Origin: Hexactinellida sp. DTS-2022
Lineage: Eukaryota; Porifera; Hexactinellida
Assembly (NCBI GenBank): GCA_028753945.1
Contig: JAPNXP010000001.1
Span: 1,912,501 to 1,976,500, forward strand
Direction of reading: 5' to 3'
DNA length: 64,000 bases
The notes beneath the pieces were generated by a model, which saw nothing but the letters and a program-made list of their open reading frames with translations, did not search any database and was not told the origin of the DNA. A program made the translations under genes and the position numbers. Shown one piece after another: positions 15,032 to 44,752 of this stretch. Every line of letters starts with the position of its first letter. Positions within the stretch are counted from its first letter, which is position 1.

Positions 15032-15040
15032 TATTAAAAA

Positions 15041-15130
15041 GTCCTTAGCGCATGCGCTACTCTACCCTTAGCGCATGCGCTACTCTACCCTTAGCGCATG
15101 CGCTACTCTACCCTTAGCGCATGCGCCAGT
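15041..15130. repeat. left subterminal palindrome array (4 copies)
   Basis: Four units of TTAGCGCATGCGCTACTCTACCC (shortened here to core GCGCATGCGC plus the CTCTACCC spacer) in direct repeat with period 23. They are the reverse complement of the right array at 21110-21470. Subterminal repeats of this kind usually serve as transposase-binding sites. Confidence 0.9.
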
Positions 15131-15382
15131 CGATTAGGCTTATAATGTACAAACTATATAAGGCCATATAAAATAAATAACTTGTTTATCATCCCCGTAC
15201 GTCCCACATTTTACCCTCCATCCGGATACATTTTATCTTATCTTATGACATAATCGTATTGATATTGGCTATAAACTTGTGTAAATGTATCAATGTATCT
15301 ATTATTAGTGCCAGTGAGATTCTTGCCAGTCGATTCATTAAGCTTATATTGATTCTAATAATATTTACATTAGAAATAACAC

Positions 15383-17379
15383 ATGCCTAAAATGACGAAA
15401 TCGAATGCAAGAGAGATTCTTGCGAACACTCTCAAAAGATTTCGACTCACAACTGGAGAGGGTATCGGAGCAGTTTTTACGTGGCACGGGAAACTAGCAA
15501 CGATAGGACCTGAAAGTTTCCAAGCCCTGTTGACTGGAATAACGGACGATACTTGGAAATCACTCACGACCACCACAACCACCAAGTCTATCGACTCAAC
15601 AAAACCTGCGCAAGATCAACATACAGTTGAGTTATTACATGGTGACTTTGAGAGCTATAGTGTTCCAACTCTGCGGAGACTTGTATCGTGGATAACGAAA
15701 CAGTCAACAGGTACTTATTCTGATTATTTAAATGTTTGTTGTCCCAAGAATCTTTATACAATTCATTTTAAATTGTACTAGGCATACACATGGCTTTCTG
15801 GAGTGATCCATCTATCCAGCCATCCTTTTGGCCAAAAGATCTGCCATATGGAAATATTAAGTGTTTCAAGAAGAAGTCCTTGTGTCAAATTATTCGGGCG
15901 TATTTGAACAGCAATAGTCAAGACGAAGCTACTCATAGTTTTCGTGATCGTTCTCCTAAGAGATCTTCTCACAAATCTCCTAAGAAAACTCCTAAGAAAT
16001 CTCCTAAGAAATCTCCTAAGAAAACTCCTAAGAAAACTCCTAAGAAAACTGCGTGCGCCAGTCCGAAAGATCGTTCAAATTGCTTTGCAATTTCAGAAGT
16101 GGACGACAATTCCGAAGATCAAACTTCCATTATACCATCAAAACTAACCGATATAGATACCAGCAGCGATACTTTTTTTTCCAGGATTGCGACAACCCGA
16201 TAGCACTTATAGCCACCAGGATCTCCAAGTTCCTACACCCAGTTTAGCTACATTAATTGGAGCAAAGCCTTTAGACCCCGTTTTCAAATTTACTCGTATC
16301 CTCTCTGACAGCGTTAGAAATCAATGTATTGGGGAGTTATCAAGCAGAAATACATTTCTAACAGACGGGTCTCTGAATGCTTTCTGCGTGAGTTCACTTG
16401 ATTTATTAAATACACTATAGGCTACTTTATATATAGAAGGTTATGGCTATACAGTAGATAATAGATATAATCATAATGGATATAGTGATCATTTGGCCAT
16501 AAATCCTCGTCCCCTACCATTATCACTATATGCAATATGTAATGTACTTATTCTATAATTAATTTTTAAATTTTATATTATAGATACTCTTACAGAATAA
16601 CTATCCCCATGTTCAGGGGCTCCAGGACACAATTCTTTCCAGAGTAAGTACTTCTTATAAATAACTACGTGGATATCGTTATAAGAAATTTGTATTTTAC
16701 TCCTGACCATGTTTTTATGACCAATATCCTTTGTACCTACTTAGAACAGTTATTGATAGTAATCTTTATTTAATTTTAGAATCGCCAATTTGTGAAGGCC
16801 CCTCGCCCAAGTATGCAGATCCACCACGACGGAGCATTGCATTGGGTTTGTTCTAACATTGATTCTAATGGCCAGGTAACCCTTTACGACTCGCTACTGA
16901 CGGGAAGAACTAGTGAGGAGCTTGACATCCAGTTAGCTCTCCTCTACGGTGGTCGTACAGGAGACTTGAAGGTGACATTTGCTCCGTTACAACAGCAAAG
17001 GGGCGGATCCGACTGTGGGTTATTTGTAGCAACAGTCTGTCTGGCCCTAGCTACAGGAGTTGACCCTGTCACAGTACAATGGAAGCAGAGTAGAATGAGA
17101 TCTCACCTCAGCGAGTGCTTTAAGAATGAATTACTGACGCCATTTCCCACAATAGAGCGGAGGGACAATAGAGATTTGAGACCTCGTTTCACCAGCAAGT
17201 CATCAACATATTATACGATTAGGCTTTGGTGTGTCTGTCATCTACCCTCTTTTGCTTTTAGGAATATGGTGGAATGCCCCAATTGTCTTAATTGGTACCA
17301 TAAACCCTGTGTGGGGTTTGTAGACACTGAGCAGATTGTCGGTAATTTCTGCTGTGCCCAATGTAAATACAAAAGCTAA
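15383..17379 (+). CDS. Transposon-borne Ulp1-like cysteine protease with PHD finger, one frameshift
   Basis: Exons 15383-15710, 15782-16387, 16584-16643 and 16780-17379. The product has an N-terminal domain starting MPKMTKSNAR, a Lys-rich SPKK/TPKK tract (about residues 170-195), an acidic linker, then a Ulp1/C48-type protease with His in GALHWVCS, Asp in LYDSLL, Gln in QQQRGG and Cys in SDCGLF. It ends in a PHD-type zinc finger (CVC..CPNC..WYHKPC..CAQC). One extra T in the T8 run at 16173-16180 breaks the frame: dropping it restores agreement with element 2 (FFPGL against FLPGL) and all splice phases, giving about 530 aa. This is therefore a recent frameshift, a programmed slip or a sequence error. 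The N-terminal part matches the element 2 homologue exon for exon. KDZ elements are known to carry Ulp1 proteases. Confidence 0.82.
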
Positions 17380-17485
17380 ACATTTCAATACTCATTTCAT
17401 TAGCACTGTATCTTAGGTTGTACGTCGTACAATTTATTAGTTCATAACACATACTTATTATGTAGTAATTGAAATTATGAATAAA

Positions 17486-20389
17486 CTAAACTTTGTTTGC
17501 TTTGACAATGTTATCTTGGTTTATACAAGCTAAGAAGTATCTAGTAGTGAAGAAGATGTTCTCTACACGCATGTAAGCAATCTGAGTTGCTATTCTTCTT
17601 AACATCGAGAAGAGTTGTTCAGAAACTTGCGAATTGATTAATTTCATCTCTTCTGTACGAATATGTCTCATAGAATACGATGGGTTACATTTGTGGTTTG
17701 TAGAATGAAACCTATCTACCAGAAAGGTTGTATTCCGAAAAAGTTGGGGATCCCTAAAATAATAATTAAATATTAAATATTAAATATGTAGTTTATTTCT
17801 ATACGGCCCGATCGCTACTGATTTATAGCTTACCTTTTCATGCATGTTTTGTGTAAATTACAAGCGTTATCGTAGATAATAACATTTGGCTGCACTTTGA
17901 AGATGGTTAGTAACAGATTATAAATTAAAACGGTTGATTCATGTTCTCGAAGAATCTGAAATCCGTAACATATTCTGTGTTTACACGATATAGCTAACAG
18001 TCCTGGCGAAAATTTGTAATGCTTGGGAAAAAATTTGGAACACTTCTCAGTCGTTTTTTCATGTTCGTTCTCGTAAAGTGGCACCCTAAGTAAAGATAAA
18101 TAACAAGATTAAATATTATTTTGCTGAAGTTAATTAATTACACTTACTTATAGTTCGTTGCAAATGTCGGGAAGTAATTGTAGTAGTCGTTAGTTTTAGC
18201 GGAAAATTCAACTAGTTGTCTTGAAGGGTTCTTGAAAAGGTGGTTAATCTTTATAAGAATGCATCTTAAGAGTGAGGAAACTGCTGGATGTAACGTGAAG
18301 AATCCATTCTTACATTCAGGAATGATAGATTTGAATAATATTTCTAAATTATGCATCTTTTGGAAAATTATTGATAAATTTTCTTCCTTTGTTGGCTCTC
18401 CATGGGATAGAAGAGCTATTATTTTTCTCTCCATTTTGTCGAGAATTGAAAATTGAAATAATCCGGTAATTGGTTCAGTACGAGAGAGCAGTTGAATTAC
18501 CTTCTTTACGTTCCCATACTCTTGATTAATTGTCACACAATCCTGGCTTCGGTATGAACTGAACAAAATGTAGTTGGCGAATTCTTGATTATTGAGGGAA
18601 TCTATCATCTCATCGAATGTATCTTCCGTTATGCCTTGCAAACAATAGTTGTTGAGTTTGTTCCGTACAGATGAGTCATGAGTGAATACTCTATCTGAGA
18701 GAGGAATTAAAGGGCATATCTGGTTTTGATCAACATTTGGAACGACAACTGGAAGCGCTTTCATTGTACCCATAGCGATTCCGTCTAAAATGATTATATC
18801 TGGTTCATGTTTACACTGGGGACAGGTATAATGTGAAGAATAGTTAATATCTACCATTCTTAAGTAAGAATTCCAAGCATGTTGCACGATGTGGTACTTG
18901 AAAGCGTTCTTCCTTCCCATCCTTTTAAGCTTCTTGTTTTTTGCACTAGAGAGTATGTGACATAACTATGTATTCAAAAAAACTAGTATTATAATTAACT
19001 AACCTCAAATAGCCATATAATGTATTTCTGGACATTGTCATTAGCTCACTATAATCATAGAGTAGACTATAATGTACGAAGTACCTATTGTTTATATTGA
19101 GTAATAATTCGCTTTGTCCTTCATAAACAGCTAGACAATTACAAGGACCATTGCATCTCGAACTGTAAACTAGATTTAGATTAACAAATAAATACCTAAT
19201 TGCATATAGTATGTGTATTAGATAATATAATAACAATTAATAATAATAATAATATATTTGCATACCTTTGTGTTCATCGAGTTCAATGATATCATTTTCT
19301 GTATATATGGTTATTCCGGTATTCTCCAGTTTGAGGTTTTCTTCAGCCTTGTATTTGTAGCCAAATTCACAGATATTGCTCTCAGGTAATATGTTTTGTG
19401 AAGGAAAACTGATTCCTTGGCAGAGCTGCTTATTATAAGTTGAAGTAAGTTTCTCATCAAATATTAACGGTATTTTCGAGGTGGAAATGGTTTTGTATTC
19501 AATTTCTTTAGAATTTGGAGTTGATGAGGAAAATCCAATCTTATTGAGGACAATTGAAAGTTTAACTTGTTTCTTACACTTAGAAAGACAAGAACAACAA
19601 TGCCAATTGTTACTGCTAAGATAAAAGTTGTGAAGACTTTTATCTGAAATCAGGATAATGTTGTGAGGATTGGGTGTAAAATAAATTACTTCATCTAAGC
19701 TGTTGGGTTCACAAACTAAGAGACAATTATTCTGAGTACATTCGTAGAAGGCTTGAAAGTGGAGACAGTTATTACTATCGCAATAAGTACAAATACCAGC
19801 GTTAGCATTTATCACAATATTCCTCTTGTTTAGCACAACCCTTCCTATAAGAGGGAACAAGTTGAACAAAACAACAACATCTTTTAAAAATATTGCATAA
19901 TTTGAAAGTTTTATATATACTATATATCTACATGATATACATATTGCAAATATGAAATAACAATATTGAAATTATACCTTGTGAGTTATCGAAATCAGCT
20001 ACAATTGAGTATTCACTGCCCTTCAATTGATATGCACGACCCTCTTCTGCCAAAATTCTGACATACTGATTAATTTTAGAAATTTCTACTTCTCTGATCA
20101 ATTCAGAATCATTAAAGTAGAGTTCTTCTTGACTGTCCTGGGCATGGCCTAAATAACAATTTACGCTATTTAAACTAATTACTAAACATCTGAATTAACA
20201 AATTATGTTATTTAGAGTTTTACCTGAAATTGTCCACAGTTGCGATTCATATTGAACAGGCTCTTCGATATCTGATAAGTACACTCTATCAACATTACTT
20301 GTGATAAAGATCATATCATCATTCTCCGAAATCTTTCTCTTCTTATTAGAATGAATAGAGTGAGTAGAATAAGTTAGCTCTTCGGCCAT
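17486..20389 (-). CDS. KDZ/Zisupton-like transposase, seven exons, intact
   Basis: Exons on the minus strand: 20224-20389, 19978-20148, 19266-19844, 19004-19169, 18148-18945, 17834-18085 and 17486-17753. All phases join cleanly to give 799 aa with no internal stop. Cysteine clusters (CTYCDSNNC, CCSCLSKC, CNGPCNC, CPQC) precede the catalytic part, as in the CxC modules of KDZ transposases. Candidate acidic residues are D415 in IILDG, D699 in IIYDNACNLH and E756 in NSQVSEQLFS. The RNase H-like fold and DDE role are inferred from these motifs. Intron positions and phases are the same as in the transposase at 39579-42588, although the proteins are clearly diverged. A basic stretch (NKKRKIS) near residue 16 may be a nuclear signal. 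Confidence 0.85.
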
Positions 20390-21008
20390 TAGGAAAAGTA
20401 ATTAGATTCACGAAAATCAACCAGTTAGGTAACCTGCATTCGTAATCAAGCCTGTTATTTATAGTCGGTCGATAATCAGGTTGAAGTGGATAATGTTATG
20501 TATAAATATAAGCATTCCAATTAACATTTTGTGAAGTGTTATATACATATAGGGGTTCATTTCTTATAATATTAACACATTCCAAAGTAACGTTAATTTG
20601 TTGTAACAACACTAATGATGTTGGAGAATGTGAATAATACACTCCAATGAATATCTTTTACTTCATAATTTTCTATTTTTAATCAATTAGCATTCCAATC
20701 TTACAGATTTATTGCTACAATAATCTAATATGAAATACAACTAGTGTCTGAAATAGCATCGTAATACCTAGTAATTAGATACAACCTACCACCTTGCTCA
20801 TGTGAAAAAACATCATTGTTTTGTATTCCCCAGCCTATTATTTAAGTTTTTCCCGTTTACCTACTCGTATACTTCTTTATTTATTCACTTCTTTATTTAC
20901 TCATCTCTTTTTACTAATCTGTTTCTTATTGGTACTATATTTAGTTTTTGAAGTGCCTAAGCCTTCTCAGGCAGGTCTTTCTGTTATTGTACTTTTTTTC
21001 TTGCACAA

Positions 21009-21039
<31 letters not shown>

Positions 21040-21105
21040 GAAATACAACTAGTGTCTGAAATAGCATCGTATTACCTAGTAATTAAATACAAATTATGTA
21101 GTAAA
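20390..21105. other. non-coding interior of element 1
   Basis: It holds the presumed transposase promoter and an AT-rich spacer. A GAAATACAACTAGTGTCTGAAATAGCATCGTA-like segment (at 20732-20764 and again at 21040-21071, given here only by position) is duplicated, and a (TTA)n microsatellite lies at 21009-21037. No gene is visible. Confidence 0.5.
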
Positions 21106-21109
21106 ACTA

Positions 21110-21470
21110 GCGCATGCGATAAGAGAAGAGTAGCGCATGCGCTAAGGGTAGAGTGGCGCATGCGCTAAGGGTAGAGTGGCGCATGCGATAAGAGAAGAGT
21201 AGCGCATGCGCTAAGGGTAGAGTGGCGCATGCGCTAAGGGTAGAGTAGCGCATGCGCTAAGGGTAGAGTGGCGCATGCGCTAAGGGTAGAGTGGCGCATG
21301 CGCTAAGGGTAGAGTGGCGCATGCGCTAAGGGTAGAGTGGCGCATGCGCTAAGGGTAGAGTAGCGCATGCGCTAAGGGTAGAGTGGCGCATGCGCTAAGG
21401 GTAGAGTGGCGCATGCGCTAAGGGTAGAGTGGCGCATGCGCTAAGGGTAGAGTAGCGCATGCGCTAAGGA
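21110..21470. repeat. right subterminal palindrome array (16 copies)
   Basis: Sixteen 23-bp units of GCGCATGCGCTAAGGGTAGAGT plus G or A, in direct tandem. Two units (the first and the fourth) carry the variant GCGCATGCGATAAGAGAAGAG. The left end has only four units, so the element is strongly asymmetric. Confidence 0.92.
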
Positions 21471-21746
21471 CTTTTTAATAACTCCGTTTTTTACTAGAAG
21501 AAGCACACTAAAAATACTGCACTTTGATAGGATTCTAATAAATAACCATTTATCTATCGATTGGTGTGATTCCTGAACAGAATCAACTAACTAATTGTTT
21601 AATTAGAATCAACATAAATATAAATATTTTGATAAACGAATTCAAAATAAATTTACCAATACGTAATCAGATTCATCGATGTTGTTTGTGGTGAGTCACT
21701 GGTGACCTAACAAGGAGTATTTGAGTGAGAAATACCGTATATTCAG

Positions 21747-22249
21747 TAGTGCTGCGAACTGGAATTAAATTTGATTCAATTCAGTTACAGTTACAGTTAC
21801 AGTTTTAGTTTCATTTCAGTTACAGTTTTAATTCAGTTACAGTTACAGTTTTCATTTCAGTTACAGTCTTAATTCAGTTACAGTTTTAATTCAGTTACAG
21901 TTTTCATTTCAGTTACAATTTTCATTTCAGTTGCAATTTTACTACAGTCAGTACAATTTCGTACTTAGTTAGGTATTCCAAGGTCTGCAGACAACATAAT
22001 CTAGTTTAATTTTTTCTAATTTCATTTTGTGCCGCCTACTTGTGCTGCAAACCGGAATTGAATTTGAAGAAATTCAATTTCAGTTTTAATTTCAGTTGGA
22101 GAAAAATACATTTCAGTTACAGTTACAGTTACAGTTTTATAAACGAGTACATTTCAGTTACAGTTACAGTTACAGTTTAGAAAAATCGCTAAAACTATTT
22201 CAGTTTTAATTCAGTTACAGTTTTAATTCAGTTACAGTTCGCAGCACTA
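21747..22249. mobile_element. hAT-type MITE built of CAGTTACAGTTTT repeats
   Basis: Ends TAGTGCTGCGAACTGG and CAGTTCGCAGCACTA are flanked by the 8-bp repeat ATATTCAG at 21739-21746 and 22250-22257. The interior is almost wholly degenerate CAGTTACAGTTTTAATT repeats, with an internal second copy of the end (GTGCTGCAAACCGGAATTG) near 22040. Confidence 0.85.
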
Positions 22250-22451
22250 ATATTCAGAGGTGTACCTAGGCCTGCTTGTAGGTGCAGCCGCACCTACAAT
22301 ACTATCTTATTGGATATTTTAGACGCTAGGAATACACCAGATTTAGCCGATTTTTGGGTGGATCCGGCCGCATCCAGGATGAGAATTCTCGGATCAGGAT
22401 TGTATAATAATTAATATTTAATTAAAATATATTTACCCAATCATTCAATAA

Positions 22452-23125: not shown

Positions 23126-23231
23126 TATAATTAATTAAATTGATAATTTATTTCATTGAATAAATAAATTGTATAAATTACCTGTGAACGTTATATAACA
23201 CATTTTTTATAAGGAGCACCTAATATCGTAC

Positions 23232-26818: not shown

Positions 26819-27585
26819 ATTTGTTATTAGTGATTGTAAACAAGTTTGGCTAGACAGACGTAATTCCAAAACAAATGATTGGATGAATGAATTTAATATC
26901 AAGTAAGTCTCAACCAATTAAATTATTCTCAGTTAGGCATTCTATAATGCACACTTAACAAATGATGAAAACAAAATCAATTTATATGAATAGAATGCTA
27001 GGTGTTAATCAAAATTGGCACAACCGTCCAATTAAAATCATAGTTGCATTATACGTAACGTATAAACGAGTGTGAAGTTGGCTGAATATTCGATCAGCAC
27101 AACTTCAGTCAATAAGTTGACTAACTTGCTGACATCAGATTTAAATGATTTTTACAGCATTCGAAAGAGTAGAAACCTACGTTTATGAAACTAGCATTAC
27201 AATTTTAAAAAAATTCATTTTTGACAAAAATAATTGACCCCTGACCCGCACTAGTTGACCCACTTTTTTAATATACTAATACTAATTATCAAGCGATGAA
27301 ATTATGCATGTAAACTCCAGAGACATCTACGTTTATGTTATAGAAATTTCATCAAAAAATATAATGTACTTTTTGAAATATTTATGTTTGAATATTGAAG
27401 TTGTCAAAATCGAGTCGCCATAAAATCCTACTATGCATACAGCTAGCAGCGTCAATTCCAGTTTGACGTAGATAGTTAGAAGTGATTAAATTAGATCACA
27501 AGCTTCAAGCTGATATGCTATTACGTATTAATAATTCCTTATGAAGAGGATAATGTCAACTCCCGCCTCTCATTCTATTAATAAA
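26819..27585. other. AT-rich intergenic stretch
   Basis: No gene, repeat array or RNA recognised. Confidence 0.3.
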
Positions 27586-28943
27586 TGGGAAAATTCCAAA
27601 AATACTCAAGTTTTTTAAAAATTTCCAAATATACTCAACTTTTTACTGATACTCAAATATAAAACTAGATCTTTCCGAATCTACTCAAGTTTTTCAAAAT
27701 AATTCCAAATCTACTCAAGTTTTTCAAAATAATTCCAAATCTACTCAAGTTTTTCGAAATAATTCCAAATCTACTCAAGTTTTTTAGAATAATTCCAATT
27801 CTGCTCAAGTTTTTTCAGTAAATTCACAGATCTACTCAAGTTTAGAAAGGCTATATTTAGTCTATCTTATATATTAAATCACAATGTTTTTGTGTTTGTT
27901 TGTTTGTGTGTTTGTTCAGAATTGATTGAGGAACTGGTAAAAGCTACAGACCCAAAATTTGGCAGTGGGGTGGGGAATACTAGTAGTATTGTATGTACAA
28001 ACAAGTTCAATATCTAAAAAGATATTCAAATCTTCCATCACAAAAGGTGTCAAAACCTTTAGCCAATTAAATTCGAGGGTTGTTCCAGTATGGATTAGCA
28101 GCTAGCATTTCAATTAGTATAATCGAATGAATGCTTTAGTGTCTGTCAATTGTTAAGTATGCATTATGGAATACTGAGAAAGTAATCTAATTGATCGAGA
28201 GGAAGTTCAGGCATTTAATCAGTTATTTGTGTTCTGTCTGTCTAGCCATACATTTATAACATTCCATTGTGTTATTTGATATCAAATTATTATCAATCAA
28301 TACAATAACTTCTCCACATCCCAAAGTTAGGGGTCCACTGGTACAGTTTCTTAGTGATATTTAATTATATATTTGGAATTGGTATATTATTATACACGGA
28401 CAAGCTTATATATCTAGAAAATTATCTGTTCAAATTTGCATAAATATCCAAATTATTTAATCTGTCCTTATAGAAACCTGTAGCTAGGATGAACGGATAT
28501 AAATAGACGGCTAGCGGCCAACCATCAAGAACGACATTTAATTTGAAAAGCAGATGCTTTAAATACAAGCGAGGGCCGTAGACCCGAGTACAAGTTGTAA
28601 GGACGCGCGTAGAGCAGACGAGCAGATTGTACTAATAAATATTTTTTGTGGTTGGGATCTCCATACTAGTTTCAATAATCCAATAAAACTTGAGTATATT
28701 CGGAATAATCCAATAAAACTTGAGTATATTTGGAATAATCCGATAAAACTTGAGTATATTTGGAATAATCCAATAAAACTTGAGTATATTTGGAATAATC
28801 CAATAAAACTTGAGTATATTTGGAATAATCCGGTAAAACTTGAGTATATTTGGAAAAACTTGAGTATATTTACAAATTAGTCGAGTATTGTTGAGTATAT
28901 TTGGAAATTTTAAAAAAACTTGAGTATTTTTGGAATTTTCCCA
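27586..28943. mobile_element. MITE with ACTCAAGTTTTT subterminal arrays and a nested Helitron
   Basis: Inverted ends TGGGAAAATTCC and GGAATTTTCCCA are flanked by the 8-bp repeat TTAATAAA at 27578-27585 and 28944-28951. About eight units of CTACTCAAGTTTTTCAAAAT line the left arm, and the inverted form (AAAACTTGAGTATATTTGGA) lines the right arm. A Helitron-like element (27865-28629) sits between them. No ORF. Confidence 0.8.
27865..28629 (+). mobile_element. Helitron-like element, CTTG family
   Basis: Starts TCTTATATATTAAATC after an A and ends AGACGAGCAGATTG before a T. Its relative at 56739-58238 fixes the 3' boundary. It has the TTTGTTTGTGTGTTTG 5' tract shared by all Helitron families here. 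Non-autonomous. Confidence 0.7.
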
Positions 28944-29337
28944 TTAATAAATTTGAGGTATTTCAAAGCATGTAATCAATCACCAAGTCCCGCAATAATA
29001 GTAAACGGGCTAATTTACTCCATCAATTAATTAATACCAAATTTTGTAGACTGAATAGCCTTTTTCACAAATGGAGGGAGAGTATTGTTTTAATTATTGC
29101 AAGGAGATGCGCTAGATGACCTCGGTCATAAATAAGATAATAAATAATTTGATAGTTTAATTAATTGGATGACTTATTAGATTTCAAAGATTATACAAAG
29201 CATTGATTATATAATTCAAAATTCTACATAGTGTACACAAATATCATTAATACACTTATAAATTAATCGTTAATCATTAATCGTTGTCCACAGAATTAAA
29301 ATAGAATAACCATAATATGCGCGCGAAAATAAATAAT

Positions 29338-32597: not shown

Positions 32598-35048
32598 TCA
32601 TATTTGGTAGTTTTGATTAACCATGCCTGGTGGGTACACCAGCCGAGCTGATGCAATCATAGAAGTTGAATTCATGGCGCTAGTTAGCAGTGTGTGGTCT
32701 TGAGTGGGAGGTTCCGCAGAGAGTACATAGGGAAGGGAGGCAGAAGGGTGCATCAGTTTGTTAACACCAGACGGGGAATAAATAGAATCTACTTGTAGGG
32801 TGTTGTTGTGGAAAGGTGTTAATCGTTTCTGTTGAAAGTGAGCTGGGTTAATGGAATGGGGCTCATGTAGATTAGAATAGCCGTTATCACCAGGGTAGTC
32901 AAATGTAGGAGCGTAAGAAATCTCGTTAAGGTACATGCCATTCACAATAGCACTCTGTCTATTCATAGAATCTTCAGAAATAGAATTTGTTGTATGGAAG
33001 GAATTGGGTGAGTGACGTGGAGTGTTGCAGGTATCTGAGGAGTCATTCGTTTGATGGGTTCTAAGGGAGAGGTGCGGAGCAACTGGTAAGGTGCGAGATT
33101 CCAAACGCTCTGAAAAATGGGATGATCTGGAATAATCGAATCTGAATGGTATGATAGGAGAGGGATAATCGACATTAATAAGGGGGTTGGAGGATTTATT
33201 CGCATCAGAGGAACAATTCGGGTAGCCCATAAGAGGGTGCATTAGATTATCACTTGGAGACAATTTTGAAATAACTTGTGGATAATCGTGATAGTTAGGA
33301 ATTATATTTTTCGGGTGAAGCAGTGGCTGAAATTCACATTCATCTGACAGAGTAATTACCCGTTCATCTGTTTCAGGTGAGAGTTCCAAATTACCTGGTA
33401 CGATTATCTCAATAGGTCGAGTAGGGATTTCATCTAGCGGTTGAAGATTGGGATTGTGAGCGATAAAAATTTCACGCAAAACGTCTTCATAACCCTTCTC
33501 AATTTTTTGGTAAATGAGGTGTTCGATAACAAAGAAAATGTACTCTGATAACATCAAGTATAATAGACGGAAGCATCCAAAGCTAGGAGCAGACTTTATA
33601 GTCATTTCCTCTTCGATAATTCTTCCAATGAAGAACCACTCTAGCATCACCTGTCTACTTTTGGATCTAAAGTGGTTGATGTTAGAACCGGCGGGTATTA
33701 CCACAAGCGAATTAATCATCGAGTCGATCCACTCGAGGTAGAGGTCGAGAGGGGCTTGCTTAACAAATAGACTCTCCAATTCAATAGATAATATCCTAAC
33801 TAAACTTTTCTCCTCAGAAGCACACCTCTTCCTTACGAATGTAAGTCTTAGAGAAATATCACAGAAGTCCAGAGTCCTCCAGTCTTCCAGCATAACTGAG
33901 ATAGACTCGCAGTTCCTCAGAACTCCACGTGCAGTCTGTGCTAGCATCACCAGAGTAGTCTGTCGGAGAAGGATCTTGGAGAAGTTTTTCGCTAACTCAA
34001 TCTTCCTAATCATCAGCTTTGGGGGTAGATCGGAGAGAGCTTCGAACAGCCATTCCTTTATATTCACTGCAAAATCTTTGATATCTGCAAGGAGAGATTC
34101 GGGTAATGCTTGTAATGAGGCTGGAATAAGGACTTCTCCTAACACACGGTATAACATTACATCACATACAGTTATTATATGTAGTGTAATTGAATAGTTG
34201 AGGACTTCAAGCATATGCTGAGGCATCCCTTGCCAGAAGTGAACCATTAAGTCATTCACTTCTTCAAAGTTTGCCCGAATAACAGAGTCCATTATTCGCT
34301 GACAATGGGTCCTGTACATTATCATAAATGTTTTTAGTTTCCCTTTATAAGAGTTAGGTTTCAGGTCGAGATATGAAGTGTCCGGGAAATCAGGCAGAGG
34401 AGTTCTTAGCTTCACACTAGGAAAACATATTGAAGTACTCTCTTTCTTTGCTTTTGATAATATTGGAGTAGTGATGCCCCCTCCAAGGGAAGTAGAAAAA
34501 CGAGACAACCCATTTTTATGTTCAGAAGACCTATAATATAACGATTCTGGTTTAATCGCAACACCGTAGTAATGGTATTTAGACTGTCCTCTCGTGCCAA
34601 GTCTACGTGTTTTTAGCTCTGGGAACTTTTGCTTGATAATCTTCCCAAAAGAGGCTGGACTTACTGGAAATATGGAACTTCTCTTACAGTAGTCCAAGTA
34701 ATGGTTGTACATAACACTACGAGCCAAACACTCATCATCTTTCAACTCGTAGTTGTCTTCCAGCCATACGAATACAGCATGATTATTCGATCTCCTCTGT
34801 TTACTAGAAATGAGTTTGGAGAAAGATGGAGAAAGAAAAGGTCTACCTAGGTAAGTTGAACTCATACTATCTACTGGGGCGTGTTGAATATCAGGCTTCA
34901 TGGCAAGTTCCTCTTCAGAATTGAAGTCTAAATCTGGGCTCTCTTCATTACTATTACTATGCAATAAGTGTTGGTCATTGAGGTCCATAGGGCTAAAACA
35001 GTAATATTTGTTATTAATTTTAGTAAGAAGAAAAGGGTAATCCTGCAA
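32598..35048 (-). CDS. RFX-family winged-helix transcription factor
   Basis: An uninterrupted 816-aa ORF. Residues about 90-168 are a full RFX DNA-binding domain, recognised by FVWLEDNYELKDDECLARS, SFGKIIKQKFPELKTRRLG and TRGQSKYHYYGVAIK. A long conserved region follows (about 230-545, from TFMIMYRTHCQRIMD to EKGYEDVLRE), as in the extended dimerisation part of RFX1-4/6/8 types. The C-terminal 270 residues are Ser/Pro/His-rich and probably regulatory. RFX factors bind X-box motifs and in animals often drive ciliary genes; which subgroup this belongs to cannot be settled by eye. The first codons (MQDYPFLL) follow a TTTGCAG that could be a splice acceptor, so the true start may be the ATG at 34986-34988 (MDLNDQHLL) or an upstream exon. 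Confidence 0.92.
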   Translation of the reverse strand: MQDYPFLLTKINNKYYCFSPMDLNDQHLLHSNSNEESPDLDFNSEEELAMKPDIQHAPVDSMSSTYLGRPFLSPSFSKLISSKQRRSNNHAVFVWLEDNYELKDDECLARSVMYNHYLDYCKRSSIFPVSPASFGKIIKQKFPELKTRRLGTRGQSKYHYYGVAIKPESLYYRSSEHKNGLSRFSTSLGGGITTPILSKAKKESTSICFPSVKLRTPLPDFPDTSYLDLKPNSYKGKLKTFMIMYRTHCQRIMDSVIRANFEEVNDLMVHFWQGMPQHMLEVLNYSITLHIITVCDVMLYRVLGEVLIPASLQALPESLLADIKDFAVNIKEWLFEALSDLPPKLMIRKIELAKNFSKILLRQTTLVMLAQTARGVLRNCESISVMLEDWRTLDFCDISLRLTFVRKRCASEEKSLVRILSIELESLFVKQAPLDLYLEWIDSMINSLVVIPAGSNINHFRSKSRQVMLEWFFIGRIIEEEMTIKSAPSFGCFRLLYLMLSEYIFFVIEHLIYQKIEKGYEDVLREIFIAHNPNLQPLDEIPTRPIEIIVPGNLELSPETDERVITLSDECEFQPLLHPKNIIPNYHDYPQVISKLSPSDNLMHPLMGYPNCSSDANKSSNPLINVDYPSPIIPFRFDYSRSSHFSERLESRTLPVAPHLSLRTHQTNDSSDTCNTPRHSPNSFHTTNSISEDSMNRQSAIVNGMYLNEISYAPTFDYPGDNGYSNLHEPHSINPAHFQQKRLTPFHNNTLQVDSIYSPSGVNKLMHPSASLPYVLSAEPPTQDHTLLTSAMNSTSMIASARLVYPPGMVNQNYQI

Positions 35049-35483
35049 ATTATTATTTAATTAATAATTAATTCTAAAATACTTACAAATTCGAAACGAA
35101 ATAATAGTAGATAGAAAAGCATATTTTATACTGCTTCTCGCTACTTGGTTACTAAGTATTGTTTTAGTAATGTCTGAGATTATACTGAAGCCAATTAGAA
35201 TATCAGAGAAGCAGCTTCGTAACTATGCAAGGTAATAACAACTAATATTTCTTAATTTAATTTAATAAATACGTTTTATTGCAAATTAGCTAAGAAAACA
35301 AACACTACTACGTACTTTAGAGATTAGAGATCCTTAGGAGATTAAATTGTATATGTTACCAATTTACCATGCCTATACATGTATGTAACTTTGGACTTTT
35401 TGAGGAAATTTATAAGATCACATTATTGACTGCAACTCGGAGGTTGTCGTAGTTAGAGGTGTATTATCTCAAATGTTCACATT

Positions 35484-35941: not shown

Positions 35942-36082
35942 TTCACAATGTATTATTTGTAAAGGAGTGTCAATGGGTATGCCTAATTTCCGGGACGGGA
36001 CTGAACCGTCCCGGAAGTTCCAGGTACCTAAAGTACGGGACGGGACAGGTAGCAATAAATTATTAATTACGATTACATGGGT

Positions 36083-36960
36083 AAAGGGTGGGATTGGTTA
36101 ACCGATCTGAGGCTACGGTTACAATTCGATTTCTCGCCACAGTTAACCGGTTAACCGCCCATCCTACTCAATACAATAAATCCTTTATAAAAATTTGATT
36201 ATACTACAGAATAAGACTCAGCTGTATTAAGTATAACCGCATTATAAGTACCGTATATTAATTAACTGATACATTTCGTGCTTTAGGTAAATTTAAATCA
36301 ATGTTGTCTAAGAAAATTTATTAAGTGGTGATGAGAAATGGATTTAGGACTAACATCTATATTATTAAATCTCGATAGTTTGTTTGTTTGTGTGTTTGTC
36401 CGGATTGTATTAAAGTGATGGGGGAATAGAAACCACATTTATATATGAGATATAAACTAACTTCTAAATGTTATAATGGGTAAACAAATGTTATAATAGG
36501 TAAACAAGTATGCTGAACACGAATTTCGCATTTATAAATTTCTAATATGAATATTTGTTGTTGTTTGTTTACACAAAATAGGTAAACAAATTAATGAAAA
36601 TTCAAAATCGACCTAGAAGTTAGCTTTCAACGGGTATATTATAGGTAAACAAGTATGCTAATCACGAATTTCGCATTTATAAATTATAATATGAATATTT
36701 GCTGTTGTTGTTTACACAAAATAGGTAAACAAATTAATGAAAATTCAAAATCAGCCTAGAAGTTAGCTTTCAACGGGAATTATAAGTATATAACTATGAC
36801 AAATATTACTAACTATGTAATCAATTGTTTAGTGAGGAGTAAAGCCGCGTAGCGGTCGTTAACTTGAGGTGCGTAGCACCGATCTGTTGCAAAGCGACCG
36901 AGACCGAGGGCTCGTATTCTGATAAAATTCAAAAGAGTTTTATACTTTATACATTGAGGC
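36083..36960 (-). mobile_element. GGTTAACC-type hAT relic split by a Helitron
   Basis: 36083-36355 matches the MITE at 3711-4128 in reverse. The match resumes after 36914 with TATTCTGATAAAATTC, corresponding to TATTATGATAAATTC in the intact relative. Similarity fades after about 36960. The pair provides an empty-site comparison for the Helitron between them. Confidence 0.75.
36356..36914 (+). mobile_element. Helitron-like element, CTCG family (boundaries fixed by empty site)
   Basis: Inserted between A (36355) and T (36915) of the host hAT relic. It begins TCTATATTATTAAATC and ends GAGACCGAGGGCTCG. The interior has two copies of a segment containing AAATAGGTAAACAAATTAAT. Three GCGTAGC/GCAAAGC hairpins precede the end. 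No ORF. Confidence 0.85.
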
Positions 36961-37680
36961 ATTACAGTGAATTCATAAAATCTAATCAAGTTCCAGCTAA
37001 TTGGCAGTTCGCAAGTTGGTTTAAGGGGGGTAGCATATAATATTAACATATTATGCGACGAATTTCCCGTTAACGGTTTGAGAACCACTGCTTTAGAATA
37101 CTTACGCGGTATAGCAAATAATTTTAACTTCTGATTTTCATATTTTTTTAATCTCATTCTTACATATCAAATATATTTGTTAAATTTATATCTTCATTAA
37201 TTCTACATATTCAATAAACAACTTACTAACCATTTTATATTAAGCAACTGAACTTTATCAATAAAATGTTTTCCTTTCGACTAATTTCCTTTTCGACCAA
37301 ATTTCCGTCGACGAATTTTCCTTTCGACCATTTTTATCGACCAAATTTCCGTCGACTAAGTATCCGCGAACTCGTATATTCCGGATATTAAGCGTTTAAA
37401 ATTCCGGAATAATATTTTTGTTCAAGAAATTATCTAATTTTAATTAATCTACAGAAACTTATATTCCTGATATTAGGTGTTGAATTTCCGGAATAATATT
37501 GTTCTAGAAATTAGGTATTCATATTTTCCGGAACCGTTCCGCCCAATTCCGTAATTTTGGTACTTTGATATTCCGGAATGGTACCGTTGCACACCGTTCC
37601 GTTCTGGATATTGGGTATGCCCAATCATTTCTTACAAACTCCATTCATTTACATTGAAAATACTTGTTAGCACTAGTACT
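36961..37680. other. repeat-rich upstream stretch
   Basis: Contains TTTCGACCAAATTTCCGTCG repeats (about 37280-37365) and TTCCGGAATAATATT repeats (37380-37590). A possible right end GGGTATGCCCAAT at 37613-37625 weakly mirrors ATGGGTATGCC near 35973. No gene. Confidence 0.4.
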
Positions 37681-37710
37681 CAAACCCAATTTGGATATTC
37701 CAATCAACAA

Positions 37711-37753
37711 CCAATCAGATTCCAGTATTTTATGTTGTACTCAACTATATAAA
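37711..37753 (+). promoter_or_regulatory. Histone H3 promoter: CCAAT and TATA boxes
   Basis: CCAATCAG at 37711-37718 (a second CAATCAAC at 37701) and TATATAAA at 37746-37753, which is 56 bp before the ATG. This spacing suits a compact replication-type histone promoter. Confidence 0.75.
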
Positions 37754-37763
37754 CACTTGCTAA

Positions 37764-38219
<456 letters not shown>

Positions 38220-38237
38220 GAACTCCAGATACTACCC

Positions 38238-38253
38238 GGCTTTTTTCAAAGCC
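38238..38253 (+). promoter_or_regulatory. Variant histone 3' stem-loop
   Basis: GGCTTTTTTCAAAGCC, a 6-bp stem with a TTTC loop, starts 19 nt after the stop codon. The position, stem length and loop match the animal histone mRNA 3' stem-loop (consensus GGCTCTTTTCAGAGCC) with one compensated base-pair change. It supports 3' processing without poly(A). Confidence 0.85.
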
Positions 38254-38495
38254 ACATTCCCGATGGATTATTTTGTTTTGCTCTTGTACTTCTCGGTCCA
38301 ATGTATTAAAATCTCTTTTAATTATTTCATAAAGTATGGACATAACTAATTTACGGAACTGGACCATTTAGAAAACAGTCTGTTCTCTCAAATTGTCCAC
38401 TTTTCTAATAGTCCACTTATTTACTTGTCCAAATCAACTACTAAAGCTGATTTTTTCGAATTTTTTTTTAGATTTGTTATCTTGGTGTATTAAAA

Positions 38496-38580
38496 AGTCG
38501 AGTGCGCATGCGCATAGGGTCGAGTGCGCATGCATATAGGGTCGAGTGCGCATGCGCATAGGGTCGAGTGCGCATGCGCA
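38496..38580. repeat. left subterminal palindrome array (4 copies)
   Basis: Four units of GTCGAGTGCGCATGCGCATAGG, period 22; the second unit reads GCGCATGCATAT. The core GCGCATGCGC is shared with element 1, the spacer is not. Confidence 0.9.
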
Positions 38581-39064
38581 TCTGCGAAGCCAGTCGAGGC
38601 TGCCGGAGCATGCAGAGGGCATATAGATTTTAGTTCATTCGAAAATTCCGTCTGCCCACAGGCCACGTTCAGTATCCCAAATAAGTTAATTGAGCCTGAA
38701 AACTTGTATACCATATTAGTGCTAATAGCTATATAATAACATAACCCATTTAGAATTTGGTTATTTCGTGAAGCATACGTAAACCTATTAACGAAGTAGA
38801 GCGAATTTTTCATGTGGTCGATTCCCACCCAAACTTCTATGTAATACTTCGCGTTACAGTATTACAAGTATGGAAACCTACCACAAGTAAATTCCAAAGC
38901 CTTCCTTTTGTTACTAGTGAAGTCCTACGGTACGTATATATTTCAGTGCATATATGTTACGGAAGATGTTGGCTGGGGGAATTTATATTGCGATTCTGAA
39001 AATAAGATTACACCAAAACATATAATATCAATACGTATAATATTCCAACATGCATAATTTACTA

Positions 39065-39228
39065 CAGTGACCAAGTCGGATATAATGAAATACCCGCTTA
39101 TAAAGAAATGGCTATTTTCCCCCAGAGCACTAAATGCATTAACTATTATCCGTGCTTATAACGAATATCCTGTTATAACGAATGAATTTACAGTTCCCAA
39201 GCACTTCGTTATAAACGAGAGTTCACTG
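39065..39228. mobile_element. pogo-like MITE
   Basis: Starts CAGTGACCAAGTCGGATATA and ends TATAAACGAGAGTTCACTG, bounded by TA. Located in the 5' part of element 2, upstream of its transposase. Confidence 0.65.
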
Positions 39229-39578
39229 TATATTCATGTTTACTTATAGTATTTACATATTATCTATATTTCAGATCAATAAATATATTTGTAATTTTCG
39301 AGCCAACATCTTCCAAACACGGAAGATGCTGGCGTTTACAAAATCTTATTTGTGGAATCCTTATTACTGCAAATGTTACCAGAAACCTTATCAATGCTAC
39401 ATAATTGGATACCTGGTCAGTGCTGCGGTTAACTGAAACCTCTTAATGCTGAAGAAAAGCCATACAAATTAACCGAGCCAACACCTTACGTAACATATAT
39501 ACTACTTGTACAGTTAAAGGTTTTAAAGTGCATTTATAAATTGTATCAATTGATCACATTTTCTTGAATTGTTAAAAT

Positions 39579-42500
39579 ATGGCAGATGAGATAGCGTACA
39601 CAAGCGTCAACATATCAAATTCAAAGAAAAGACAACGAACGGATGAATTTGTAGAAACTCAAATCTCACATCTAAACATAAGTTCTGCAGCAAGATGTGT
39701 ACATGTTTTGGATGAACCCTTAACCAGAATTGAAATTGATCAGCAAACAGGTTGTTCTATTTACGTTATACTAGTTAAATACCAAAATAATTAATAACAC
39801 AGTACAACAAATTTTACTTTAGAAAACGTCATGTTCAATTATTAAATTAATGGTTAAAATACTCTTCTAATATCGTAGATATTGATCATCGTTCGGACAT
39901 AGTTAAATCAGATGATGAAGCGATATCAATATTCCCGATACCAACCTCTGATCAGTACACCTCCCTCTTGATTTTACATACAAAGGCTTGGTTATTGTGT
40001 GATACAGTATTCGCAGTTGTGTCAGATTTTGAATTAACTAAAAGCGGTATGTTTTCTAGTCCTATTGTGGGTATTTTGTTATAATAATATTTCTTAAAGA
40101 GTACAGACTTAACCTTGTCTATTTAGAAGAAGTCAAGTTAACGAAAGCAAAGGTAGTGATCGAAACAGTAAAGGAACTGTGTTTGAAATGTTGCAGTCAT
40201 GATTGCATTCATTATCAAGGGTTCCAACAATGCTTAATTGACAACTACCTAATTCTATGCCAACCCAGCTATGTTAATAATACTTATACATCTTTCTCTA
40301 TCACTTCGTCAACTGTTATTCTTATTGAAAATAAGGAATTTCACATTATCTACAGAAATGAGATGAAGTGGTATTGTGATTCATGTGTGAAAAAATGTAC
40401 TAAGTCAGCTTGTATGAAAAACATTTTACCTGGAAACGATCTAAACGAGATACTAACTGTCCCGAAAGAAATTCAATATACTGTAATTTCCAACCTCCCT
40501 ATACCCGCATCTTTTGATGTAAACATGGCAAATATCTACGAAGAGCAACAACTATACAATAATCTGAATTTACCCATCGAACTACTTCCAGAAAAGGAAC
40601 TGTGTGAATATGAATATTCATTTAGTAAGGAGAATATTAGATTGGAGAGAGAGGGACTCATCCTATACACTGCAAAGGCTGTTATTGATTTAACAGGACA
40701 TAAAGGTAAGATTATACCAATCATTACACACAACCTATAACCTGTCCAATGTTTACATTCTTAATTCTTTAGTTTATAGCTCTCAATGCGAAGGTCCTTG
40801 TAAATGTAGGGCATATTTCGATGGTAGTTCAAGGCTTTTGCTAAACATAAATAACAGATACTTTATGCATTATGACCTAATGTATGAGTATAGTGAATTT
40901 ATGACATCATCTAGGAACACGCTACACGGTTATTTCAGGTAAGAATCGCCCTGAAATTAATAAATAACGAAGTTGATTATATTATTCTATATATATAGGG
41001 CAAAAAATGCAGTGATGAAGAGACTAGGAAAGAGAAATATGTATCTATATCACATTCTTAAACACGGGTGGAATGCATATTTGAGGATGGTCAATATTGA
41101 CTACAAAGCGAGTTTTAGTTGTCCTATATGTAAGGAGAACCCAGAAGTAATAATTATGGATGGTATTACATTAGGGACATTAAAAAATATCCCTGAAACT
41201 TCTCATTTGATTGACCAAGAACAACATTTTGATCTCACCCCATTAACTGAACGTGTATTCATTTCTAACGCTGCTACAAGAAAATGGTTAAAAGACTTCA
41301 GCTCGATTGGATTGAAAATGTCCCATTTTACTGAAATGTTGGGATCTATTTCTAGTACTGAGCTTGTGGAGTATATATTATATAGTAGTATAGAATGTGA
41401 TGGCCTGAAGATAGTTCATAAAGATTTCCCTGGAGTTAGTGTCTTCTTAGGTTTACTAAGCTATCCTTCACCATTATGTGGAATATTTCAGTTATCACTA
41501 CTCACTAAGAGGGAGCGAGAACTATTAGTTTTATTATCAAGGGGAGGATACCTTCTTCAAAATGAACTTCAACAAATATATGTTAAAATTCATCCTGTAA
41601 GAGTATTATTTGATTCATTACCAACCAAATCAAAAGGCGATGGACGGTTGGCGGCACATCACCTTGTCAATGCCCTGTTAACAGTGATTTTGACGAAAAT
41701 TTATAATCTGTTCAAGAGGCCTACACGTCAGCTTGTAGAATATCAAGTTGTTGACAATGATTACTTCATGTATTTCCCTACATTTTCAACCACCTACAAG
41801 TAAGTAATATGATAGTTATTAATACAAATTATTATTCAGGATGATATACATGTACACTTAATTTTTCTTAGAATACCCACATACGAATCAGAGAAGCCTC
41901 AATCAAATCTAAGATGTTCGAAGATTTATCCAAAGCATAATAGATTCTCTCCAGGGATGCTAGTAATGGCTTGTAAACATAAGGTGTGCTATGGATTCGA
42001 AGTTCTAAGGGAACGGGAATCTACTCAAATAGTATACAAAATGCTGATCTCTATTTTCAAGCGACCACCAAAGATGATTATCTATGACAATGCATGTAAC
42101 TTGCATACTACATGTATACTAAGGTAAAGTTGATAATTAAATATACGTACACCCCGCTAAATTATATAGCTATTGCTCATCCGAACAGTCCCGGACCAAT
42201 GAAAATACAAATTTATCGGATTAAAGAGTTTGGCATTAGTGAGAGCATTAGTGACTATTGTAGTGGTATTGATATGATATAAGTATTATACAATATTTAA
42301 TTGGTTTTGTAACATAGGGATCCTGCTCTTTTTCGGGATACAACTTTTTTAGTGGATAGATTTCACTTTTCGAACCACAAATGCACTCCATCATATTCCA
42401 TGAAATCAATTCAAACTGATGAAGTGAAGCGCATCAACTCACAAGTTTGTGAACAGATCTTCTCAGTTCTAAGGAGAATTTCAACCCAAATTGCGTACAT

Positions 42501-42588
42501 GAGAGTAGAAAACGTTTTCTATAACACAAGATATTTTTTGGTTACTATGAATCAACAAGTAATGTCTGATATAGTAATGCATAACTAA
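39579..42588 (+). CDS. KDZ/Zisupton-like transposase, seven exons, intact
   Basis: Exons 39579-39750, 39879-40046, 40127-40705, 40773-40938, 40999-41799, 41872-42123 and 42318-42588. All junctions are GT/AG and in phase, giving 802 aa. It matches the element 1 transposase along its whole length: CLKCCSHDCIHYQGFQQC, CDSCVKKC, CEGPCKCRAYFDG, NINNRYFMHY, CPIC, IIMDGITLGT, ACKHKVCYGFEVLRE, IIYDNACNLH, FLVDRFHFSNHKC and NSQVCEQIFSVLRR. The third and sixth exons have exactly the same lengths (579 and 252 nt) as in element 1. The D...D...E assignment is by these motifs. The gene looks functional at the reading-frame level. Confidence 0.85.
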
Positions 42589-42655
42589 TAACTATGTATT
42601 TATACTAAACTAATGAAGAGATTTATGTATATAGTACTGTGTGAACAAAATTAAT

Positions 42656-44565
42656 CTATTTCTTATTAGGTGGGCATATAGGGCAAGAAAATTTTAGCAC
42701 TTTGCTGTTGTTGTCTGGTAGGCAAACACATGGCTTGTGAAACCACCTTCTACATCTTGAACATTCCACCATATGATTATGTAAAAATTGTGGCAACCTG
42801 CAGACGCACCACAATTCTATGTACAATGACTCAAATGGAGTCATGAGAGAGTTTGATTCTTGATGTATTCTTGTGTTGGGCTTTCGTATCGTTGGAAAAG
42901 GTGTTAAAACTTCTGACTGTATACAGCTTGTCAAATGCTTACGCATGTTAGCCTGGCGCCATCTAATAGTTGCTGGATCCTCCCCAGAAGCTATCGCTAA
43001 ACAAACTGCCACTGCGAAAACGCCGCAGTCTGCACCTCCTCGCTGTTGTTGCATAGGCACTACACTTATTTTAAGTTTAGATTCCTGATGTGCATACAAG
43101 AGAGCAAGCTGTATATCTAACTCCTCGCTTGTTTTTCCCGAGTAATAAGAATCGAACAAAAAGATTCCTTCTTTGGTTATTCTAGAACAGACCCAATGCA
43201 GGTTTCCGTCATGGTGAATTTGAACACTGTTCATTGGGGCTTTAACAAATTGACGATTCTATAGAATGTGATAGAATAAAGTTTCATAGACCGTATGCGA
43301 GAATACAGAACATAAAAATAATAAGATCTACATAATCTACCTTTGCTAAAATTGGGTCTTGTAGTCCTAGTATAGTAGGGTTACTCAGCTTTAGTAGATC
43401 CTAAGATTTTACAATAGATAAATACAGTGAACTATCGTAATAACCAAGTCGGGTATAACGAAACTCCGCTTATAAATAATTAAAATCGAGGCCCCGAAGG
43501 TTTCGTTATAACGGGAGTTCAATGTAGTATTATAAAAATAATTACCATGCAACTGTTAATGCAATTTCCGGTCAGGAAAGTGCTAACTTAGGGTTTGATA
43601 GAATATTGATAATTTCCATCTTAAGGCTGTGCTCTATCACTGTAAATTTGACATTTAGGGGATTTATTCTCTGCGCATTGGCTTGGACAGCGAGTGAAGA
43701 TGTTGGCGATGCTTGTGTAATATGAAAAGAAGTGCATTCGGGTTGCTTGTAATTTTCACTAATCATGTTTTGATTTACAGAAAGTCCAGGTAAAAATGAA
43801 TCATCTGAGTCGTCCACTGGTATAATCTCACTATGTGTGCAATCGTCTTGCACATTATAACTGCAACTGGGCAAATCTGTCAAGTCTTCGATTGAGGACA
43901 GAAGAGCGTTTTCTTCGTCTGGGGTAGGATTTCTTTTTGGGGAATTCCGAGGAGATCTATCTCGAAATACCTCAATCTCTTTCAGTGGAGCTTTGGAACT
44001 AGAATTGTATATCTTGTACGCAGAAATAATTTTAATCAAGGTCGACTTTTTAAAGGTTTTCTTGCTGATGTTTTGGAAAGGAATTTCAGCTGGCCACCAA
44101 ATTGGACTTTTATCGAGATTGCCCCAAAAATGTCGCGTTGTTCCTAGAACGAGTAATACACAAATCTGAATGTTGTGTTGCCAAAACAAGTATTTACATA
44201 TTTGTGTACATATTATACTTTAGAACAATCTTTATTAAAAACTTACCGATAGATTTCTGTGTAATCCATGATATCATACTTCTTAACTCTTTGACAGTAA
44301 TTACAGATAGATCGCCTTCTATTCTGGCTGCCATCTCAAGCTCTTGAGCTGGTATAGAATAATTTACATCATCTGGGCAAGCTAGGGCCCTCCAAATTTC
44401 ATCCGAATGTTCGTTCATTAGTTTGGTAAATAAGCCATTTCCCAAAATTGACAATCCACCTTCCCACGTGAAAGCTAACCCTACCCTCTGTCCGGTTACT
44501 TCTTTAAAACGGGTTAACATCCTTTGTAACATTGTTCTGGCGTTAGCCTTGGTCATTTGAGGCAT
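42656..44565 (-). CDS. Transposon-borne Ulp1-like cysteine protease with PHD finger, one frameshift
   Basis: Exons 44247-44565, 43546-44143, 43341-43400 and 42656-43258 on the minus strand. The N-terminal domain starts MPQMTKANARTML, followed by a WPAEIPFQNI block as in element 1, but the SPKK tract is missing. The protease has His in NLHWVC, Asp in FLFDSYY, Gln in QQQRGG and Cys in ADCGVF. The PHD-type finger reads CVCRLPQF..CSRCRRWFHKPC..CPIC. Near 43580 the frame ends in a TGA, yet the following bases in another frame give FLTGNCINSC, matching FLTDGSLNAFC of element 1. One missing base explains both this and the exon phase. About 526 aa if in frame. Intron 43401-43545 holds a pogo-like MITE. 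Confidence 0.82.
43425..43524. mobile_element. pogo-like MITE in an intron
   Basis: A 100-bp unit starting CAGTGAACTATCGTAATAAC and ending TATAACGGGAGTTCAATG between TA dinucleotides, in the 43401-43545 intron. Confidence 0.6.
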
Positions 44566-44644
44566 GGTTGAATATAATTTCTCGCGAGTAAAAACAAAGC
44601 TCTAGCTAGTTTGGAACTTCTATATTTATATAAAACAACAAAAA

Positions 44645-44731
44645 ATGCGCATGCGCACTCGACCCTATGCGCATGCGCACTCGACCCTATACGCATGCGC
44701 ACTCGACCCTATGCGCATGCGCACTCGACTT
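44645..44731. repeat. right subterminal palindrome array (4 copies)
   Basis: Four 22-bp units of GCGCATGCGCACTCGACCCTAT in inverted orientation to the left array. One unit reads ACGCATGCGC. Confidence 0.9.
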
Positions 44732-44752
44732 TTCAATATATGATTTTCAATG

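Follow-up and report, generated by a model that had tools for sequence, protein, structure and literature searches.

KDZ transposons of a hexactinellid sponge carry an NRF1-like, Ulp1- and PHD-bearing protein that probably binds their own end arrays

Why should a transposon carry, beside its transposase, a SUMO protease joined to a PHD finger, and why should its ends be built of palindromic arrays? Both questions are raised by two elements, named e1 and e2 here, that lie in opposite orientations in a window of 64,000 nucleotides from Hexactinellida sp. DTS-2022 (GCA_028753945.1, contig JAPNXP010000001.1; C1:1912501-1976500), and whose relatives were sought in the genome (112.4 Mb, 18 contigs). 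A first-pass annotation of the window had described two related KDZ-like transposons, each with a convergent Ulp1-PHD gene, and had suggested that this pairing alters or reads chromatin or SUMOylation, which is plausible on the domains present. It held neither the NRF1-type dimerisation domain (DD) and DNA-binding domain (DBD) at the N-terminus of the accessory protein, nor the NRF1 sites in the element ends, nor the frame breaks in accessory exon 2. The DD, the DBD and the palindromic sites change the main reading: the protein would chiefly bind the ends of its own element, rather than serve as a chromatin accessory. We propose that e1 and e2 probably represent a broad and varied family of Kyakuja-Dileera-Zisupton (KDZ) transposons of the cut-and-paste type whose NRF1-like/Ulp1/PHD protein, A, binds its own end arrays as a dimer; that A binds the arrays, taken by itself, appears very probable.

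The accessory protein is arranged as an NRF1-type DD and DBD, then an Ulp1/C48 protease and a PHD finger. In exons 1 and 2, the match to the family PF10491 (Nrf1_DNA-bind) exceeded its cut-off of 23.5 bits in e2, at 25.4, and fell just short of it in e1, at 21.7, and a phmmer comparison of e2 exons 1-2 with human NRF1 (8k3d) gave 4.7e-5. A profile of 20 copies matched human NRF1 (8k4l) at E 1.3e-11 across both DD and DBD, with the next non-NRF1 match at 0.21, and PF10491 was detected at E<=0.1 in 19 of the 20 accessory copies. Human NRF1 contacts the CA core of its site through R206, the outer G3 through N242, and positions 4-5 through R244, as described in PMC10810270. The equivalent of R206 was invariant in all 20 copies, the DBD Trp was also conserved, and the N242 equivalent was Asn in 14 of 25 tabulated loops. 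The resemblance to NRF1 (human NRF1; P3A2, EWG) thus covers a homologous DD and DBD, the core-reading Arg, the DBD Trp, and a palindromic GCGCATGCGC target, whereas the transposon protein is multi-copy, is fused to Ulp1 and PHD, has R244 mostly replaced, and is accompanied by diversified end sites.

The C-terminal part, which had been recognized at first pass as Ulp1-PHD, kept its expected residues: H21, D37, C79, and two Gln of the Ulp1/C48 domain and the eight zinc ligands of the PHD finger (C4HC3) were each invariant in 8/8 aligned copies. PF02902 (Peptidase_C48) was found at E<=0.01 in seven of these copies and the PHD finger in all eight. Taken singly, the two window copies scored 19.3 and 15.0 bits for C48, both under the Pfam cut-off of 20.7, and for PHD e2 was over and e1 under the cut-off. 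A profile of exon 4 matched the PHD finger of PHF2 at 4.7e-13 and the Ulp1-like SUMO protease 6dg4 at 8.4e-6. No relative of the e1 Ulp1-PHD exon was confirmed among viral contigs.

The end arrays carry the second line of evidence. All 24 occurrences of GCGCATGCGC in the window fell inside the four element ends, and 100 dinucleotide shuffles gave a mean of 0.01, which rules out a chance origin of these sites. Genome-wide, the word was found 379 times, as opposed to 26 for the reversed word, and GCATGC triplets at end-array spacing numbered 581 (counted in overlapping windows) versus 3 for the reversed form. The palindromic arrays reported earlier are therefore present, and their palindromes are the NRF1 word, which NRF1 binds as a homodimer (PMC10810270). 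Tandem units of 23 bp are repeated 3.7 and 15.7 times at the ends of e1 and units of 22 bp 3.9 times at both ends of e2, and the inverted end arms are 97% (I3) and 98% (I6) complementary. In every case the array lies upstream of a gene start, at 252 and 721 bp in e1 and at 80 and 998 bp in e2.

In the mechanism that we envisage, a DDE transposase (gene T) is paired tail to tail with the accessory protein (gene A), and dimers of protein A would sit on each GCGCATGCGC-type palindrome, coating the arrays at both element ends. Because the arrays occupy both termini and also lie upstream of both genes, the bound row of A could flag the ends to the transposase, could activate both promoters, and could station a SUMO protease, along with a reader of histone tails, on the element, preventing its silencing. 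We are evenly divided on whether anti-silencing and transcription are the main benefit of binding; that binding serves end recognition in the transpososome is a somewhat doubtful proposition, and the two roles may coexist.

The assignment of both elements to KDZ was borne out by their transposases, which scored 36.2 and 34.3 bits for PF18758 (KDZ; cut-off, 26.6). They had also been called CxC-type, and here the outcome was mixed: a CxC4 zinc-cluster match is present in each, but at 24.4 and 23.9 bits it is weak and lies under the cut-off of 26.9. The zinc clusters of KDZ transposases are hypothesized to recognize DNA or chromatin proteins (PMC12062965). A D-D-E pattern scan over 37 loci, some overlapping and most with part of the gene only, found the first motif (LDG/IDG/MDG) in 33, YDxAC in 29, and NS..EQ in 27, with none of the three in L032; judged by motif, these probably hold the catalytic residues. 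For the target duplication, the lengths considered were 7 bp, as in Kyakuja, and 8 bp, as given for Zisupton (PMC12730594). An exact 8-bp duplication flanks e1, and a near-identical e1 copy on C7 has an exact 8-bp duplication of its own, ATAATAAA; the flanks of e2, compared at borders set by analogy, showed no matching duplication.

KDZ transposases are multi-exon genes (PMC9297572), and those of e1 and e2 were modeled with seven exons each. All gene models are based on GT-AG signals and conservation, with predicted exon joins. The T1 exons of e1 (166, 171, 579, 166, 798, 252, and 268 nt) and the T2 exons of e2 (172, 168, 579, 166, 801, 252, and 271 nt) give open frames of 799 and 802 amino acids, respectively, with the same intron phases (1,1,1,2,2,2) and with exons 3, 4, and 6 of equal length. 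The accessory exons measure 328, 606, 60, and 600 nt in e1 and 319, 598, 60, and 603 nt in e2, exon 3 being equal, and the junctions of both genes in both elements are GT-AG throughout. The two-gene, tail-to-tail layout noted at first pass, with its matching phases and equal exon lengths (579, 252, 60, and 166 nt), was thus recovered in e1 and e2. The transposases are 43.7% identical (346/791 aligned) and the Ulp1-PHD exons 54.6% (107/196), so the elements are separate subfamilies and not a recent duplication, again as first proposed.

The architecture extends well beyond these two elements. Genome search lists are lower bounds throughout. At least 121 matches were obtained with e2 exon 1 as query, and among the 117 entered, 77 had a same-strand Ulp1-PHD exon no more than 4.5 kb downstream; for Ulp1, 122 of at least 150 rows were entered, the 28 left out being for the most part additional fragments of a single copy or rows with low scores. 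KDZ places, one per element, were hand-picked from at least 124 KDZ match rows, giving 53, with three further places (C9, C14, C15) outside this set. A convergent Ulp1-PHD gene lay within 5 kb of 46 of the 53, and an NRF1-like exon was present too in 41; a same-strand Ulp1 was seen once. Inverted pairs of end arrays 1.2-1.5 kb apart were also observed at C1:3940842-3942093 and C1:7494474-7495995 (G000), and these are possibly non-autonomous derivatives mobilized in trans.

The arrays were surveyed in 47 sequences that each cover the surroundings of an accessory gene, including several copies of one family, and were located by script or by eye. A dyad array was present in 34 of the 47, with a CATG core in 31 of these 34; the core was CTAG in L081 and L054, and L082 had TTCGACAGTCGAA. 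The half-sites (GCGC, GAGC, GTGC, GCAC, GGAC, TCGC, and CCGC) differ by subfamily, and some arrays are mixed. Palindromes with GAGC, GTGC, or TCGC halves are weakly bound by human NRF1 (PMC10810270), which makes host NRF1 unlikely as the sole reader. Nineteen families in which the array has a CATG core and residue 242 is known were compared at G3 after dropping the C7 near-copy; the residues and the most frequent bases were entered manually. Asn occurred with G3 in 11 of 12 families and Cys with a non-G base in 3 of 3 (Fisher p 0.004, uncorrected for descent), and families with other residues (K, K, G, Y) had G3 present. This association is suggestive of a site code. Four families (L081, L054, L082, and L068) combine an NRF1-like DBD with arrays off the CATG core, either of the types GCGCTAGCGC and TTCGACAGTCGAA or built from a repeat that is not palindromic, and would be good cases for how a site code shifts.

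Several observations weigh against A as a tuned binder of its own ends. No clear dyad array was seen in 13 of the 47 sequences; L051 and L053 among them were cut around exon 2, and in another, L068, the array is not palindromic and the DBD next to it looks intact. L081 and L054, both with Cys242, keep GCGC halves around their CTAG core, and the TTCGACAGTCGAA of L082 departs as well. Of 25 loops, only one has Arg at the R244 equivalent (K in 6, S in 12, others in 6), and site changes at position 4 (GAGC, GTGC), examined for tracking of this residue, showed no clear pattern. At position 3, L069 (Asn) has a mixture of A and G. The Cys242 families, six in all, group within a single clade of seven (100/99), with L098 (Tyr, GCGC) nested inside, which leaves few independent events. 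CpG decay of GCGC, and not tuned change, might have produced GTGC and GCAC; as the sole cause of site variation, decay is weak, because CpG observed/expected is 0.85 and because GAGC, GGAC, TCGC, and CCGC are not simple decay products of GCGC. Finally, part of the gene set is missing at 12 of the 53 KDZ places, and the accessory gene is broken in both window copies by a frame break in exon 2, the exon sums leaving phase 1 in e1 and phase 2 in e2. In the near-identical C7 copy, exon 2 is open where the e1 frame breaks.

Among other explanations, the transposase itself might bind the arrays, leaving A only as a SUMO protease and chromatin reader whose NRF1-like part serves dimerization or acts at host promoters. 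The DNA or chromatin recognition hypothesized for KDZ zinc clusters (PMC12062965) and the weak CxC4 match speak for this; we nevertheless judge it unlikely, as the array word is the very word read by the DBD family of A, and the core-reading Arg is invariant. Alternatively, the arrays could be promoter or enhancer sites for the host's NRF1, borrowed for expression, with the NRF1-like part of A doing something else. The genome does contain one clear host NRF1 gene (C1:12370499, 176.5 bits), with the R206 and N242 positions kept and Lys for R244, NRF1 is known to act at promoters (PMC10810270), and the arrays stand upstream of the gene starts at the distances given above. Set against these points, subfamilies with GAGC, GTGC, and TCGC ends, weak sites for human NRF1, keep both arrays and the NRF1-like gene, the flavor of an end follows the element's own subfamily, and the arrays sit at the extreme termini, within inverted repeats; host NRF1 as the intended reader therefore seems quite improbable. 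That the PF10491 match is spurious, a chance or unrelated juxtaposition, is barely credible, for although the single-copy Pfam scores (21.7 and 25.4 versus 23.5 bits) are near the cut-off, phmmer and profile matches cover DD and DBD, 19 of 20 copies agree, and the site word matches.

Binding of A to its own ends would have a parallel elsewhere. The plant protein VANC recognizes arrays of tandem motifs in the transposon that encodes it, shifts its specificity along with those arrays, and removes DNA methylation (PMC5735166), and its KIU form carries an Ulp1 domain (PMC13317346). Like the VANC/KIU proteins of VANDAL MULEs, A would be a transposon-encoded, sequence-specific binder of its element's own fast-changing, non-coding motif arrays, joined, as in the KIU type, to Ulp1. 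DUF1985 is marked in VANC (PMC5735166), while the DNA-binding part here is NRF1-like and a Pfam search of the accessory pieces at E<=1 gave no DUF1985 match; the transposase is also a different one, and the arrays here lie at inverted ends. We regard VANC/KIU as the closest working parallel, by functional analogy and not kinship, so that A may be an animal counterpart to plant VANC, a sequence-specific self-binder joined to a SUMO protease. Fungal KDZ elements bearing TET/JBP are similar in that an accessory gene thought to be anti-silencing accompanies the KDZ transposase (PMC12730594), and differ in that accessory gene, no TET/JBP match being found by Pfam in six window proteins.

KDZ elements can carry Ulp1. 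The elements described here share with known KDZ elements a PF18758 DDE transposase, inverted ends, an 8-bp (Zisupton) duplication, and a multi-exon transposase, and differ from them by a separate convergent NRF1-like/Ulp1/PHD gene and by NRF1-site end arrays. KDZ elements, their 8-bp (Zisupton) duplications, and fungal accessory genes are already known (PMC12730594, PMC9297572, PMC12062965, PMC12477816). Among the papers listed from the open-access literature searched, we found no description of an element linking NRF1 to KDZ or to a transposon end; what appears new, and striking, is an NRF1 domain captured by (or sourced from) a transposon, a convergent Ulp1-PHD fusion, and ends made of NRF1 sites.

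To our knowledge, animal NRF1 has no relative outside its orthologues. The transposon proteins do not behave as such orthologues, being neither single-copy (at least 121 exon-1 matches) nor grouped with animal NRF1: in the tree, drawn from the midpoint and with host NRF1 on a long branch, host and human NRF1 stand apart from all 22 transposon rows. Animal NRF1 could descend from a KDZ end-binding protein, its promoter word GCGCATGCGC having first been a transposon end, and we offer this only tentatively, as an unlikely origin; a transposon may equally have captured NRF1, and the two directions are on the same footing. Whichever direction holds, the family appears to have an NRF1-type DBD tuned to the ends of its own elements. 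The DNA-binding mode of NRF1 has been called novel (PMC10810270), and multi-copy natural relatives, each with a probable target in its own element, would constitute a ready-made specificity code. The origin of NRF1 also becomes testable through the presence of such elements outside animals.

The features of both elements are collected in Table 1. At 15953-16050, within accessory exon 2 of e1, there is a run of (S/T)PKK repeats, of which the C7 copy holds more; in histone H1, motifs of the (S/T)PKK type bind AT-rich DNA.

Table 1. Features of e1 and e2, in window positions
Feature	Position	Strand	Remarks
e1 left target-site duplication copy, 8 bp, CGTTTTTT	15020..15027	.	exact match to right copy
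KDZ transposon e1, 6457 bp, ends CATATATTAAAAAG / GAGTTATTAAAAAG	15028..21484	+	flanked by exact target duplication
e1 left end array, four copies of GCGCATGCGC in 23-bp units	15043..15131	.	
e1 accessory exon 1, NRF1-like DD and start of DBD (R206 equivalent)	15383..15710	+	profile match
e1 accessory exon 2, remaining NRF1-like DBD with NIK loop; SPKK-type repeats; frame broken within a T run	15782..16387	+	
e1 accessory exon 3, 60 nt	16584..16643	+	
e1 accessory exon 4, Ulp1/C48 protease with conserved H, D, Q, and C, and PHD finger	16780..17379	+	
e1 KDZ transposase T1, 7 exons, 799 aa	17486..20389	-	
e1 right end array, 23-bp units x15.7, 14 x GCGCATGCGC	21110..21469	.	
e1 right target-site duplication copy	21485..21492	.	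exact 8-bp match
KDZ transposon e2, 6259 bp	38484..44742	-	borders by analogy with e1 end words
e2 transposase-side end array, 22-bp units, 3 x GCGCATGCGC	38497..38581	.	
e2 KDZ transposase T2, 7 exons, 802 aa	39579..42588	+	
e2 accessory exon 4, Ulp1 and PHD	42656..43258	-	
e2 accessory exon 3, 60 nt	43341..43400	-	
e2 accessory exon 2, NRF1-like DBD (NIS loop); frame break close to 3' end	43546..44143	-	
e2 accessory exon 1, NRF1-like DD and R206 equivalent	44247..44565	-	
e2 accessory-side end array, 3 x GCGCATGCGC	44645..44738	.	

A third end array, of GAGCATGCTC type, was observed at 44751-44805, delimited as an end-like array at 44762-44805, about 8 bp beyond e2 and pointing away from it; this may be a remnant of another subfamily or a nested or rearranged insertion. 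Between e1 and e2 lies an RFX transcription factor gene with an unbroken frame of 820 amino acids (32598-35060, minus strand), with domain matches to RFX BCD (6.5e-74) and the RFX DNA-binding domain (5.5e-30). Near the end of e2 at 38484 lies a core histone gene (37764-38219, plus strand; PF00125, 2.3e-48). Fragments of a P-element-like transposase, with matches to Tnp_P_element and TNP-like RNase H, occupy 48619-50806 on the minus strand. At 27577-28952, 30-bp tandem arrays form an inverted pair with arms 74-95% complementary, possibly another, unrelated repeat-ended element. Tandem satellites with units of 141-143 bp are found at 36492-36788 and 51948-52420 and, compared by eye, appear to be one repeat in opposite orientation.

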